Shown here piece after piece: positions 48,838 through 62,367 of a stretch of 64,000 nucleotides of DNA; the first letter of the stretch is position 1, and each line of letters begins with the position of its first letter. A program made the translations under genes and the position numbers. Origin of the DNA: Aceticella autotrophica. Lineage in GTDB: Bacteria > Bacillota > Thermoanaerobacteria > Thermoanaerobacterales > Thermoanaerobacteraceae. Below the pieces are notes generated by a model. The model saw only the letters and a program-made list of their open reading frames with translations, had not been told where the DNA came from and did not search any database. The DNA is taken from contig NZ_CP060096.1 of assembly GCF_017357865.1 (NCBI RefSeq), forward strand, positions 2,095,001 to 2,159,000, in the 5' to 3' direction.

Positions 48838-49167
48838 TTACATATGCTTCTTAGCTTCAATTAACATCTCATCAGCTTTTTTCATGTATTCAACTGCTTT
48901 TTCTATAAATTTAGAAGTTTCCATTTTATTCATGGCTTTTGATTTTTCAACCCACTCTATAAAGCTTTCTTCATGAGACTTATTATGGTCCACCCAATGC
49001 GCCAATAAAATATCCAGCGTTTTTTCGTCTTTACTGCAAGCAATTTCTTCTAAAGGTTCTCCATGTGTATGTTCGTGTGTGTGTTCATGAGTATGATTAT
49101 GAGTATGCCCGCATTCATGGTCATGGATATGTCCGTGGTCGTGGTCATGATTAAAATCATTATTCAT
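48838..49167 (-). CDS. histidine-rich metal-binding protein
   Basis: 109 residues. The first 40 are almost entirely His with Asp, Glu, Gly and Thr (HDHDHGHIHDHECGHTHNH and HTHEHTHEHTHG), a typical nickel/zinc storage or delivery tail; the rest is a helical domain (DILLAHWVDHNKSHEESFIEWVEKS). Start ATG at 49167, preceded by AGGAG, overlaps the cooT stop by 8 bp. Together with CooT it suggests nickel supply to CODH/ACS (inference). Confidence 0.78.
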   Translation of the reverse strand: MNNDFNHDHDHGHIHDHECGHTHNHTHEHTHEHTHGEPLEEIACSKDEKTLDILLAHWVDHNKSHEESFIEWVEKSKAMNKMETSKFIEKAVEYMKKADEMLIEAKKHM

Positions 49168-49363
49168 TTTTTTCACTCCTGTTTATTAATATTTTATTAT
49201 CAAGTAATTTTATCTCTTTGATCGTTCCTTTTATAAGCTTTTCTTCTCCGAATAAATCAGTCAAAAGTATTTCTTCTTCTCCTTTTGGTTTTACCTCAAT
49301 AACATAATCCATTATTTTTTCTTCACCATCCGGTGTAATTAAATAAGCATTTGCTTCACACAT
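49160..49363 (-). CDS. cooT: CooT family nickel-binding protein
   Basis: 67 residues starting MCEANAYLI; Cys2 is the nickel-ligand residue of CooT, the small dimeric nickel protein of the Rhodospirillum rubrum CO-oxidation system. Size and beta-rich pattern (IKEIKLLDNKILI) agree. AGGAGGT precedes the ATG. It lies between acsV and the His-rich gene, in keeping with nickel insertion into CODH or AcsB. Confidence 0.8.
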   Translation of the reverse strand: MCEANAYLITPDGEEKIMDYVIEVKPKGEEEILLTDLFGEEKLIKGTIKEIKLLDNKILINRSEKNE

Positions 49364-51321: not shown

Positions 51322-51332
51322 TTTTCTACCTC

Positions 51333-51351
51333 CTTAAAAGCACCTTTTAAG
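51333..51351 (-). promoter_or_regulatory. hairpin abutting the acsV ribosome-binding site
   Basis: 8-bp perfect stem CTTAAAAG / CTTTTAAG with a 3-nt loop; its 3' arm runs into AAGGAGG, so it may limit acsV translation. Confidence 0.4.
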
Positions 51352-51403
51352 CTGATATTATTTTAACCTTTTATTAGATTTATTATTTGTTCTTATTATT
51401 TTT

Positions 51404-51448
51404 ATGCCAGTGAAACACTGCCCATCAAAGTAAGTGCTCCACTGGCAT
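51404..51448 (-). promoter_or_regulatory. structured spacer between acsB and acsV
   Basis: Perfect outer stem ATGCCAGTG / CACTGGCAT extended by a G-U-containing inner stem. No U-tract follows, so it is more likely an mRNA 3'-end stabiliser or processing site for acsB than a terminator. Confidence 0.55.
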
Positions 51449-51480
51449 ATTGTAATCAGAAAGCCTTTATATTAATAACT

Positions 51481-56965: not shown

Positions 56966-57739
56966 TTACTTTTTAAATTCTATTTTTGACAGTATATCTT
57001 TAAATGCTTTTTTATATATACTATCCTCGGGTAATTTAACCAATGGTATCGCATTTGAATCGTAATCATATATCATCGGATCCATCGGTAATACCCCTAA
57101 TAAATTCAGGTTTTGCTTTTCTATTTCTTCTTTTATACCCTCATTGATTTTCCCTTCTGGTGCTTTGTTCACTATCAAATATATTTTATTAACCCTGATC
57201 TTCAGCTCATCTGCTAAATCTCTTATGCGACCTACCGTTTGAATTCCTCTTCTGGAACAATCACTTATCAGAAATAATACATCAATATTATCAACTACCT
57301 TTCTGCTTAAATGTTCCATACCTGCCTCATTATCAATCACAAGGTATTTATAGTTGGCAGAAAGAGAATCTATTAATGCTTTTAAAATGTCATTTACATA
57401 ACAGTAACAACCAGGTCCTTGAGAACGACCCATAACCAATAGGTCATAATTATCACCCTCAGAAACCGCAGAATTAAGCCTATATTTAAAATAATCTGCT
57501 TTGCTCATTCCACCTGGATATTCATTACCTTTAAGCGCTTTATGAAGCACATCTTCTCTGATATCACCTATTGTCCCTTCAACTTCTATTCCTAATACTT
57601 CATTTAAATTGGCGTTGGCATCTGCATCAACTGCAAGGATCGGGCCTTCTCCCTTTTTAACTAAATAGTCAACTAATAATCCAGCAAAGGTTGTTTTGCC
57701 GGTGCCGCCTTTTCCTGCAACAGCGATTTTATATCCCAT
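56966..57739 (-). CDS. cooC: CooC/AcsF nickel-insertion ATPase
   Basis: MinD-type ATPase that matures CODH or ACS with nickel. 257 residues: P-loop GKGGTGKTT (9-17) and the nickel-binding CxC pair Cys111 and Cys113 (GPGCYCYVND). Location inside the acs part of the operon suggests it serves AcsB, i.e. AcsF. AAGGAGA before the ATG. Confidence 0.92.
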   Translation of the reverse strand: MGYKIAVAGKGGTGKTTFAGLLVDYLVKKGEGPILAVDADANANLNEVLGIEVEGTIGDIREDVLHKALKGNEYPGGMSKADYFKYRLNSAVSEGDNYDLLVMGRSQGPGCYCYVNDILKALIDSLSANYKYLVIDNEAGMEHLSRKVVDNIDVLFLISDCSRRGIQTVGRIRDLADELKIRVNKIYLIVNKAPEGKINEGIKEEIEKQNLNLLGVLPMDPMIYDYDSNAIPLVKLPEDSIYKKAFKDILSKIEFKK

Positions 57740-57783: not shown

Positions 57784-59163
57784 TTATTTTATAGAATGAA
57801 CAGATCCGTTGTTTACATCATGCAGTGCTTCCATTATTGCCTCTGAAAGTGTCGGATGGGAATAAATCACATTCCCCATTTCCTGGCATGTCAAGCTTAG
57901 ATGTACTGCAAGGGTCAGTTCTGCCAGCAAATCTGTGGCATGTGCTCCAAATATCGAAGCACCAATAATCTTATCATCCTTATCAGCAATTACTTTTACA
58001 AAACCTTGAGTCTTACCAACTATTTCTGCCTTCGCTTGTTCTGCAAAATTAAATCTGCCAACTTTATATTTTATATTTTTATCTTTTAGCTGCTTCTCTG
58101 TAACGCCAACTGCTGCAATCTCAGGTAAAGTAAAGATGCACCTTGGAACTGCTTTATAATTCATTCTCTTGTCTTTATTGAACGCATTTTCTGCTGCAAC
58201 TATACCTTCCATTAATGCTACATTGGCAAGGGAAATGGTATTATTAACATCTCCAACGGCTAATATCCCTTCAATGTTTGTTTCTAACTTGTCATTGACA
58301 ACTATTTTTCCTCTTTCAATTGCAACTCCCAGTTCTTCAAGCCTTAGACCATCTATATAGGCTTTCCTGCCAACTGAAAGCAACATTAATTCTGACTTCA
58401 GCTTTTTGCCGCTTTCAAGATTTGTATATACCTTACCATCTTTAACTTCGACTGATTTTATTGAATCTCCCAAAATAAGCTGAACCTTATCCCTTTTTAA
58501 TACAGATTGAAGCTCATTAGCCAGTTCCTCATCCTCAAATGAAGAAATAAGACAATCATGCTTTTCTATGATTTTTACATCTGTTCCAAGCTTGCTAAGT
58601 AACTGCCCTATTTCACAGCCTATTGGTCCGCCTCCGGCAACAACCAAGGACTCAGGCAATTTTTTCAGACTGAGCACTTCATCACTAGTTATAACATGTT
58701 TGCCGTCATATGGAAACATAGGGGGTACAACAGGTACTGAACCTGTTGCAATTATTATTTTGTCGGCTTCTAATAATTTTTTTCTATCATCCTTCATTAT
58801 TACTTCTACTGTCTTTTTGCTTAAAAGCTTAGCAGTGCCTCTTATTATTTTAACCCCTCTTGTTTTTAAAATGCATTCAATTCTACTAACTAATTGTTTT
58901 AATATACTATCTTTTCTACTAACCATGTAATTGAAATCAAGCTTTATATCTCCCTCAATTTTAACACCAAATTTATCAGCTGTAAATACATTTTCCATTA
59001 TTTCCAATGGTGCAAGCAAGGCTTTTGAGGATATACTACCTGCATTAATGCAATTCCCCCCAATATTCCCTTTTTCAATTAAAGTAACCTCGGCACCAAG
59101 CATCGCTGCTTTTATTGCAGCTACATAACCAGCATAACCTCCGCCAATCACAATTAATTTCAT
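57784..59163 (-). CDS. lpdA: dihydrolipoamide-dehydrogenase-like flavoprotein lacking one redox Cys
   Basis: 459 residues of the pyridine nucleotide-disulfide oxidoreductase fold: FAD site IVIGGGYAGYVAAIKAA, NAD site VVAGGGPIGCEIGQLL, FAD motif GILAVGDVNN and C-terminal HPTLSE dimer/base motif. The active-site disulfide is incomplete: where Lpd has CxxxxC (GGxCxNxGCIPSK) this has Cys38 and Ser43 (GGNCINAGSISSK, codon AGT). It cannot form the usual disulfide. An lpdA gene at this place is known in acetogen operons without a settled function. Start ATG at 59163 follows AAGGAGG. Confidence 0.88.
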   Translation of the reverse strand: MKLIVIGGGYAGYVAAIKAAMLGAEVTLIEKGNIGGNCINAGSISSKALLAPLEIMENVFTADKFGVKIEGDIKLDFNYMVSRKDSILKQLVSRIECILKTRGVKIIRGTAKLLSKKTVEVIMKDDRKKLLEADKIIIATGSVPVVPPMFPYDGKHVITSDEVLSLKKLPESLVVAGGGPIGCEIGQLLSKLGTDVKIIEKHDCLISSFEDEELANELQSVLKRDKVQLILGDSIKSVEVKDGKVYTNLESGKKLKSELMLLSVGRKAYIDGLRLEELGVAIERGKIVVNDKLETNIEGILAVGDVNNTISLANVALMEGIVAAENAFNKDKRMNYKAVPRCIFTLPEIAAVGVTEKQLKDKNIKYKVGRFNFAEQAKAEIVGKTQGFVKVIADKDDKIIGASIFGAHATDLLAELTLAVHLSLTCQEMGNVIYSHPTLSEAIMEALHDVNNGSVHSIK

Positions 59164-59176
59164 AAAGCCCTCCTTA

Positions 59177-60052
59177 TTATAAGCCAGCTTCATCTAAAAT
59201 AGCAGGCACATTTTCTTCCGCACCAATTGCCATAATGTGGGCTCCATCACATAGTCCTTCTTCCCTTACGGCTTTTATAAATTCTCCGGCTATCTTTATT
59301 CCTTCCTTAACCTTATCCTCTGCTGCTTTTAATCTTTCAATCAATTCATCGGGAACAAATATCCCGGGTACATTATTATTCATATATTTTGCCATACCTG
59401 CTGACTTTAACGGCACTATTCCCACCATAAGTTTTGCATCAAGGTTCTTTGTCAATTCCCTGAAATTCCTTAAGGTTTCCATATCATATACCGCCTGTGT
59501 CTGGAAAAATCTTGCTCCAGCCTTTATCTTTTTCTTCATTTTTAATACCTGAAGCTCAACAGGATCATATCTTGGTGTAACACAAGCTCCTAAAAAATAC
59601 TTCGGTGTTCCTGCCAGTTCATTGCCTGACATGTCTTTACCTCCCATTAATGCAGATGCTGCCTGCAGTATTCCGACACTATCAAGGTCATAAACAGGCA
59701 TTGCACCCGGATGGTCTCCTACTGTTGTATGGTCACCTGTTAATGCCAACACATTTTCAATTCCAAATACTCCGGCAGATAGCAGCTCACCTTGAATTGC
59801 AATCCTGTTTCTATCCCTGCCGGTAATTTGAAGTACAGGCTCTAATCCCTGCTCCTGAAGAATCCTACATGTAGCAAGAGATGTTGCCTTAAGGGTTGCT
59901 GATTGAAAATCAGTTACATTTACACCATGAACCCTACCTTTTATTGCTTTTGCACATTCAATAAGATGTGTAAAATCAATACCTTTTGGCGGTGCCATTT
60001 CTGCAGTAACTGCAAATTCTCCTTTTTCAAACGCTTCTTTTAAAAGGCTCAT
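59177..60052 (-). CDS. metF: methylene-THF reductase large subunit
   Basis: Reduces methylene-THF to methyl-THF. 291 residues of the MetF TIM barrel: VTAEMAPPKGIDF, NVTDFQS, VLALTGDHTTVGDHPGA and RFFQTQAVYDMETLRNF. It acts with MetV, encoded directly upstream (31 bp). The electron donor in acetogens varies; no RnfC2-like or hydrogenase partner gene is adjacent. Confidence 0.95.
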   Translation of the reverse strand: MSLLKEAFEKGEFAVTAEMAPPKGIDFTHLIECAKAIKGRVHGVNVTDFQSATLKATSLATCRILQEQGLEPVLQITGRDRNRIAIQGELLSAGVFGIENVLALTGDHTTVGDHPGAMPVYDLDSVGILQAASALMGGKDMSGNELAGTPKYFLGACVTPRYDPVELQVLKMKKKIKAGARFFQTQAVYDMETLRNFRELTKNLDAKLMVGIVPLKSAGMAKYMNNNVPGIFVPDELIERLKAAEDKVKEGIKIAGEFIKAVREEGLCDGAHIMAIGAEENVPAILDEAGL

Positions 60053-60786: not shown

Positions 60787-61641
60787 TCATAAATTGTTTT
60801 GCATCTTACATGCTGCGACAACATGTTTAGCTAAAATCGAAGTTGTGACAGACCCGACTCCTGCCGGGACCGGCGTTATCATTGAAGCTTTGCCGACACA
60901 TGCTTCTGTATCTACATCGCCACATAAATTGCCCTGTTCATCAACATTAATTCCAACATCGATAACAACCGCTCCTTCTTTTACATAATCGGCTGTTACC
61001 ATTTTAGCTTTACCAACGCCAACAACTAATATATCAGCCTTTGATGTAACTTCAGGCATATTCTTAGTCCTTGAATGGCAAATTGTTACTGTGGCGTTTT
61101 CATTTAGCAATAACATTGATACCGGCTTGCCAACAACCATTGACCTTCCAATTACTGCTGCATTAGCGCCTTTCATATTCACATTGTAGTGTTTTAATAT
61201 TTCAATTACAGCTGTTGGTGTACATGGAGCAAAACCTGTTTTATCTCCTTCCATAAGCTTGGCAACATTTATAGGGCTAAAACAATCTACATCCTTTTCT
61301 GCAGCAATAACATATTTTATTACTTCTTCATCTAATTGTTTTGGAAATGGTCTGAATATCAAAATACCATTTACCGTTTTGTCCTGATTGATTTTTTTAA
61401 GCTCCTCGATAAAAGCATCTTGAGCAATATCCTCAGGATATTCTTTTACTTCTGTTTCTATTCCGATAGAAGAACATCTTTTAAGAGCACCTTTTTCATA
61501 AGCAATATCGCTTCCTTTTGCCCCTACTCTGACTATTGCAAGCTTCGGGGTTATGCCCTTGCCTTTAAGGTCATTAACTTCTGCTGTCAAAACTTCGGAA
61601 ATTGCATCTGCAACTGGCTTACCTTTTATAATCTCACCCAT
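60787..61641 (-). CDS. folD: bifunctional methylene-THF dehydrogenase/cyclohydrolase
   Basis: Interconverts methenyl-, methylene- and formyl-THF. 284 residues with the catalytic Lys region (AYEKGALKRCSSIG), GRSMVVGKPVSMLLL and the C-terminal PVPAGVGSVTTSILA, a variant of the usual PVPGGVGPMT. A separate cyclohydrolase (fchA) is encoded upstream, so FolD may mainly be the dehydrogenase here. Confidence 0.95.
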   Translation of the reverse strand: MGEIIKGKPVADAISEVLTAEVNDLKGKGITPKLAIVRVGAKGSDIAYEKGALKRCSSIGIETEVKEYPEDIAQDAFIEELKKINQDKTVNGILIFRPFPKQLDEEVIKYVIAAEKDVDCFSPINVAKLMEGDKTGFAPCTPTAVIEILKHYNVNMKGANAAVIGRSMVVGKPVSMLLLNENATVTICHSRTKNMPEVTSKADILVVGVGKAKMVTADYVKEGAVVIDVGINVDEQGNLCGDVDTEACVGKASMITPVPAGVGSVTTSILAKHVVAACKMQNNL

Positions 61642-61734
61642 AACAATATCCCCTTTATATAATTATTATATGGAAAAAATAAATTTAAGTTTTTGAAAAG
61701 AATTGTGTCTCCAATCCATTTTATATATTTGCCA

Positions 61735-62367
61735 TCATTTTGTCAATATTTTTACAACCTTATCATATACTTCATCTGCAATTTTTGTTCCATTCTCCAC
61801 AAGAGGTTCGACTTCCGATTTAACCTTTTCAATATAAGCTGTATCTTTTATAGAATTAATATTGATAATAACATTTAGATGTGCCCCTATTATTGCAGCT
61901 CTAAGGCACTGAACGCCAACACCTACATCACTAATTGCAAGTTTGGAACATTTGTCAACCAAATCCTCATGTAGTTTAATCGCTTCATAAGATGCCTTTA
62001 CAATGGCAACGGGTACCGAACATGCTTGTTTAAGAGCTTTTTCAAGGGTTTCTTCCTTAATCTTTTTGTCTTCCTCAGTAGCTGTACTCATCCCATATGC
62101 CTTGGAAAGCGGTAAGAAATTCTCTGCATCATCATCAATCATTTTTAGAAGTTCTTTTTCAAGAACCCCGGCTCTCTTAAGTATATCTTTTACGTGAGGT
62201 TCATACTCAGCATATTTTTTTTTGCCTATCGTAAGATTGCATACCATACTGCCAAGTGCTGTTCCAATTGCTCCTACTAATGCCGCTGCTCCTCCTCCAC
62301 CGGGAACCGCTGCCTTTGATGCCAATACCTCAACAAATCCTGTGCATGTTTTTTCTGCTAACGACAT
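61735..62367 (-). CDS. fchA: methenyl-THF cyclohydrolase (formimidoyl-THF cyclodeaminase family)
   Basis: 210 residues, all-alpha FTCD_C family: AVPGGGGAAALVGAIGTALGSMVCNLTIGKKKY near the N terminus, the hallmark. In acetogen operons this converts formyl-THF to methenyl-THF. AAGGAGG before the ATG; 87 bp after fhs. Confidence 0.93.
   Translation of the reverse strand: MSLAEKTCTGFVEVLASKAAVPGGGGAAALVGAIGTALGSMVCNLTIGKKKYAEYEPHVKDILKRAGVLEKELLKMIDDDAENFLPLSKAYGMSTATEEDKKIKEETLEKALKQACSVPVAIVKASYEAIKLHEDLVDKCSKLAISDVGVGVQCLRAAIIGAHLNVIININSIKDTAYIEKVKSEVEPLVENGTKIADEVYDKVVKILTK

Follow-up and report, generated by a model that had tools for sequence, protein, structure and literature searches.

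Most of the Wood-Ljungdahl clusters of acetogens carry the genes lpdA and gcvH. The LpdA of the Clostridium ljungdahlii cluster carries out NADH-dependent lipoamide reduction, parted from MetFV on purification and gave it no electrons (PMC8515935). One hypothesis ties LpdA-GcvH to the reduction of methylene-THF, and the idea of a bifurcation by GcvH-LpdA-MTHFR was rated unlikely by its own authors (PMC8760232). C. autoethanogenum produces LpdA and GcvH abundantly, and there is no consensus on their role (PMC9040625), which leaves the ancestral role of LpdA uncertain. Strains of this species with delta-lpdA and delta-gcvH-acsV exist (PMC12723745), so losing LpdA function can be tolerated, at least in the conditions of that study. 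In the mechanism described for a relative in the family, electrons pass from NAD(P)H to FAD and then to the flavin-side cysteine, while attack on the disulfide substrate falls to the N-terminal cysteine (PMC10910545).

Proteins similar to dihydrolipoyl dehydrogenases (LPDs) that have no working disulfide, as predicted here for the LpdA of Aceticella, have been described. Yeast Irc15p is reduced by NADH and is active on ferricyanide, DCPIP and menadione, but inactive on lipoamide, and similar observations have been reported for LpdA (Rv3303c) of Mycobacterium tuberculosis (PMC6296175). However, Irc15p originated as an additional copy and has neither cysteine, whereas in Aceticella one cysteine is kept and the protein is the operon's own orthologue. 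The LPD-like SthA/UdhA resembles the Aceticella protein in that it retains the N-terminal cysteine but has a hydroxyl residue in place of the flavin-side one (CXXXXT), which shows that CxxxxT with the first cysteine retained is a stable natural state (PMC9460512). SthA differs in having YXXXXE, i.e., the His of the His-Glu pair is absent, where Aceticella has HXXXXE. Hopkins and Williams reportedly described, in 1995, the laboratory mutant C49S of Escherichia coli Lpd, in which the flavin-side cysteine is replaced. It carries the same single replacement as Aceticella, but it is engineered and lacks the changes in the surrounding loop.

The lpdA gene of Aceticella and its redox loop

Aceticella autotrophica 3443-3Ac is, according to its genome paper, the first obligately autotrophic acetogen; where that paper names the lpdA product (PdhD, dihydrolipoamide dehydrogenase), the cysteine is not mentioned (PMC10213532). 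The order of the cluster is fhs-fchA-folD-metV-metF-lpdA-cooC-acsD-acsC-acsE-acsB-acsV, and the features discussed below are collected in Table 1, with coordinates of the window (the whole stretch of 64,000 nucleotides that was analyzed) unless a contig is given. The lpdA gene begins 13 bases downstream of metF and has a good Shine-Dalgarno sequence (aaggagggctttATG), while the plus strand of the same interval is riddled with stops. The frame is clean, which rules out a frame artefact as the source of Ser43.

Table 1. Position of lpdA, its motifs and the related genes and intervals
Feature	Position	Strand	Description
lpdA	57784..59163	minus	459 aa open frame with ATG start and stop; orthologue of the acetogen-operon dihydrolipoyl dehydrogenase, CxxxxS
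metF	59177..60052	minus	upstream neighbor of lpdA; homologues adjoin lpdA in most clusters
cooC	56966..57739	minus	downstream neighbor of lpdA
FAD motif	59128..59145	minus	residues 7-12, GGGYAG; usual GAGPGG
Redox loop	59020..59061	minus	residues 35-48, GGNCINAGSISSKA; 4/11 family-invariant positions altered
Codon 38	59050..59052	minus	TGC, Cys38; N-terminal, substrate-side thiol, retained
Codon 43	59035..59037	minus	AGT, Ser43; replaces the flavin-side Cys of the family CxxxxC
Pyridine-nucleotide motif	58618..58635	minus	residues 177-182, GGGPIG, followed by Glu200
Codon 314	58222..58224	minus	Asn replaces an LPD-invariant His (LAH)
HPTLSE	57841..57858	minus	residues 436-441; His-Glu pair H436, E441 retained
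acsB-acsV (RACo) gap	51322..51480	minus	159 bases without gcvH
lipA, gcvH, lplA-like group	L028:11243-13615 (G000)		adjoins acsA and cooC, apart from the cluster lpdA

Genomes were searched with MetF and LpdA for methyl-branch and Wood-Ljungdahl clusters, and the flanks of the matches were then read; Aceticella was represented by one genome in this comparison set. Aceticella lpdA sits between metF and cooC in the fhs-acs cluster, and the order of the Acetoanaerobium noterae cluster is the same apart from folD. In a tree from which the redox loop was excluded, Aceticella LpdA groups with those of A. noterae and of a second, methyl-branch type of cluster (support 100/99). It passes the dihydrolipoyl dehydrogenase profile TIGR01350 with 473.1 bits (cut-off, 408.8); of the family traits, CxxxxC is absent (C38/S43) and HPxxxE is present. 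In length, domains and the neighbors metF and cooC, the Aceticella protein matches the acetogen-cluster LpdAs (e.g., of C. ljungdahlii and A. noterae), and the tree places it as their orthologue. It differs in having CxxxxS, no local gcvH and fast evolution, whereas the relatives examined here retain CxxxxC and mostly have a gcvH in their clusters. Judged by its sequence, Aceticella LpdA is a true orthologue that changed, and no intruder from another family. The genome also contains a second, intact LPD (G000 517559-518923, GGTCLNRGCIPTK) with CxxxxC, which scores higher with the LPD model than LpdA does (554 versus 473 bits).

The preliminary description of this gene had read Cys38 and Ser43 from the codons TGC and AGT, and the minus-strand codons confirm it. 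We found CxxxxC in every other LPD examined, i.e., 16 cluster orthologues, 14 paralogues, that of A. noterae and 4 from an order whose LPDs lie outside Wood-Ljungdahl clusters (L150-L153). In this comparison A. noterae LpdA represents clusters of the Clostridiales/Peptostreptococcales type, with the C. ljungdahlii and C. difficile sequences outside it. Since all 16 cluster orthologues and A. noterae keep both cysteines, the idea of Ser43 as an adaptation conserved across acetogen operons is refuted, and the Cys38/Ser43 observation itself stands. A search with the LpdA protein returned only two distant LPDs from genome contigs and none from viral contigs.

The changes extend beyond this codon. 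The redox loop reads GGNCINAGSISSKALL in Aceticella versus GGTCLNRGCIPTKALL in its relatives, and 8 of the 58 alignment columns that are the same in all 26 other LPDs differ (L39I, C43S, P45S, T46S, G94R, L98I, H314N and G377A). They are concentrated in the redox loop, with 4/11 invariant columns altered there versus 4/47 elsewhere, a modest difference (Fisher p = 0.035). Three nearly invariant residues (P10Y, T37N and V180P) are replaced as well. Both GxGxxG motifs, Glu200 (which usually signals a preference for NAD(H)), GD (304-305) and HPTLSE are retained. The claim in the preliminary description that every other fold motif is intact thus holds in part: it is true of these motifs but not of the 8 LPD-invariant and 3 nearly invariant residues just listed. 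A replacement disulfide with another cysteine of LpdA was considered and rejected: C97, C204 and C426 have no counterpart in the relatives, and C183 and C342 are common in normal LPDs. An AlphaFold2 model built from three input sequences was of poor quality, with a mean pLDDT of 59 and values below 50 in the redox loop.

This LpdA has also evolved fast. In a leave-one-out comparison, it departs from 29 of the 116 columns (25%) that are invariant in the other orthologues, while the next worst protein departs from 10 of 97. In Tajima relative-rate tests that compared Aceticella with A. noterae, LpdA was the faster one in Aceticella with each of the three outgroups used, at 79/48 (p = 0.006), 80/42 (p = 0.0006) and 90/53 (p = 0.002); p values are per test, and the one with the G216 outgroup is still <0.05 after multiplication by 13. 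The same tests covered 12 cluster proteins (folD, absent from the A. noterae cluster, was left out), and none of the 11 other testable ones was significantly faster in Aceticella. Aceticella LpdA matches the consensus in 74% of residues where columns are invariant but in only 28% where they are variable, compared with 92% and 28% in A. noterae. Conservation is thus still graded by site, which indicates that selection on Aceticella LpdA has weakened or moved, but not vanished.

Lipoyl genes and composition of the cluster

The clusters of A. noterae, of the T. kivui-like genome and of others have gcvH directly behind acsB. Aceticella carries a gcvH whose product has the lipoyl lysine (VESAKVASD) ca. 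8 kb upstream of fhs, grouped with lipA and an lplA-like gene. The GcvH is 67% identical to that of the T. kivui-like genome versus 54% to that of A. noterae, unlike the acs genes, and so has a different origin from LpdA. According to the account in the genome paper, the Wood-Ljungdahl cluster was acquired horizontally and acsA was inherited (PMC10213532), and the identities of GcvH and the acs genes fit this scenario. No glycine cleavage P protein (GcvP) was found above the Pfam cut-off in the Aceticella genome, and hence LpdA cannot serve a normal glycine cleavage system. Elsewhere in the genome (L029:8929-9780; G000 2208928-2209779) a GcvH domain with a lysine in its lipoyl motif (ESGKAVFE) is joined to a DGC-domain protein, and two further DGC-domain proteins come next; a similar set is present in the T. 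kivui-like genome (L034).

The fchA/folD region (60787-62367) is nearer to methylotrophy-type clusters (69 and 68%); Aceticella fchA is 55% identical to that of A. noterae, and fchA and folD are 52 and 60% identical to those of the T. kivui-like genome. The Aceticella cluster thus looks mosaic. A swap of the methyl branch, including lpdA, from a cluster of the methylotrophy type would fit fchA and folD, but lpdA is equally near to A. noterae (p-AU 0.198). A second type of cluster (L059, L061 and L057) combines corrinoid methyltransferase genes with fhs-fchA-folD-metV-metF-lpdA-gcvH and has no acs genes; in L056 and L060, lpdA is absent, yet gcvH is still found after metF. Both Aceticella (window 48838-49176) and A. 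noterae (L104:22621-22977) have a small His-rich protein at about the same place after acsV, possibly a nickel-binding helper of CODH/ACS.

Possible roles of the altered LpdA

We consider it probable, with some reserve, that Aceticella LpdA is an orthologue that has lost lipoamide chemistry, likely still binds FAD and NADH (diaphorase-like) and is under weakened or shifted selection. That the protein would not run lipoamide chemistry without Cys43 had already been proposed, and the missing flavin-side cysteine supports it. NADH would still reduce the FAD directly, and electrons would leave LpdA only from the flavin, since the disulfide that would relay them to lipoyl-GcvH is missing; they would go straight to a small or protein acceptor, as in a diaphorase. 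The gene is retained in a strongly selected operon, and selection on lpdA itself would be weaker or altered, likely because its cognate GcvH left the cluster, GcvP is absent and the intact LPD can serve the remaining lipoyl-GcvH. We infer in this way the loss of lipoamide activity, the continued reduction of FAD by NADH, the relaxed selection as its reason and the takeover by the paralogue. P10Y, V180P and G377A could also impair the binding of FAD or NADH.

The acceleration in LpdA could also mean a new function. LpdA might have been repurposed by adaptive fast evolution for a new dedicated acceptor, be it a Wood-Ljungdahl protein, a quinone-like compound or another carrier, which we regard as unlikely but as the most serious alternative. 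The intact frame and ribosome site within a Wood-Ljungdahl operon, the conservation graded by site and the confinement of the fast evolution to LpdA are all compatible with it. However, one genome cannot show a conserved new motif, and there is no new partner gene beside lpdA. MetFV, suggested as a partner in the preliminary description, is unsupported in this role because relatives with both cysteines have the same neighborhood and the C. ljungdahlii homologue, which separates from MetFV, failed to couple with it and supplied it no electrons (PMC8515935). The more specific proposal, that LpdA is now a disulfide-free NADH-flavin carrier with a dedicated Wood-Ljungdahl acceptor, appears somewhat less likely again; if true, such a carrier could serve acetogenesis without lipoamide.

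There is little to recommend the reading of lpdA as a dying gene whose product is already without FAD or activity and which survives only because of where it lies in the operon. The alteration of 25% of the invariant orthologue positions, including the FAD/NAD motif residues P10Y and V180P, speaks for it; but the frame is full length, both GxGxxG glycine sets, Glu200 and HPTLSE are retained, and conservation is still graded by site. Equally improbable is an SthA-like NAD(P) transhydrogenase, in which the FAD would shuttle hydride between NADH and NADP with no disulfide involved. It is true that the E. coli K-12 sthA sequence, which was included in the comparison, has C-x4-T at the same place (see also PMC9460512) and that Ser is close to Thr, but the CXXXXT of the soluble transhydrogenase is not matched by the CXXXXS of Aceticella, and these enzymes carry YXXXXE (PMC9460512) where Aceticella LpdA has the HXXXXE of HPTLSE. 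Moreover, the score with NF003585 (347.9 bits) is below the cut-off of 465, Glu200 at the ribose site points to NAD(H) only, and the protein falls inside LpdA in the tree.

Slimmer still is the chance that Cys38 works alone, through a sulfenic acid or mixed disulfide, in the manner of CoA-disulfide reductases, NADH oxidases or NADH peroxidases; the first two were the models named in the preliminary description. One active-site cysteine is indeed left, together with the His-Glu pair. However, NADH oxidase and CoA-disulfide reductase-type enzymes require their single cysteine at the flavin, and such chemistry is unlikely here because the flavin-side cysteine is the one that was lost. Cys38 is the substrate-side residue by alignment (cysteine roles from PMC10910545), and with the CoA-disulfide reductase model NF007123 the protein scores 95.8 bits, a long way short of the cut-off (458). 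Finally, a sequencing or assembly error at codon 43 is hardly credible: a change from TGT to AGT takes one base, but the genome, one contig of 2,267,618 bp, is a finished hybrid assembly (PMC10213532), and the adjoining loop residues are also unlike those of the relatives, which makes a single-base error a poor explanation.

Aceticella offers a natural experiment: its cluster LpdA is very probably, judging from its residues, unable to do lipoamide chemistry, yet the organism is an obligate acetogen. The case also shows how a family model can put a name to an enzyme that has lost a catalytic residue although its gene is intact. If our reading is true, acetogenesis in Aceticella needs no lipoamide turnover by the cluster LpdA.
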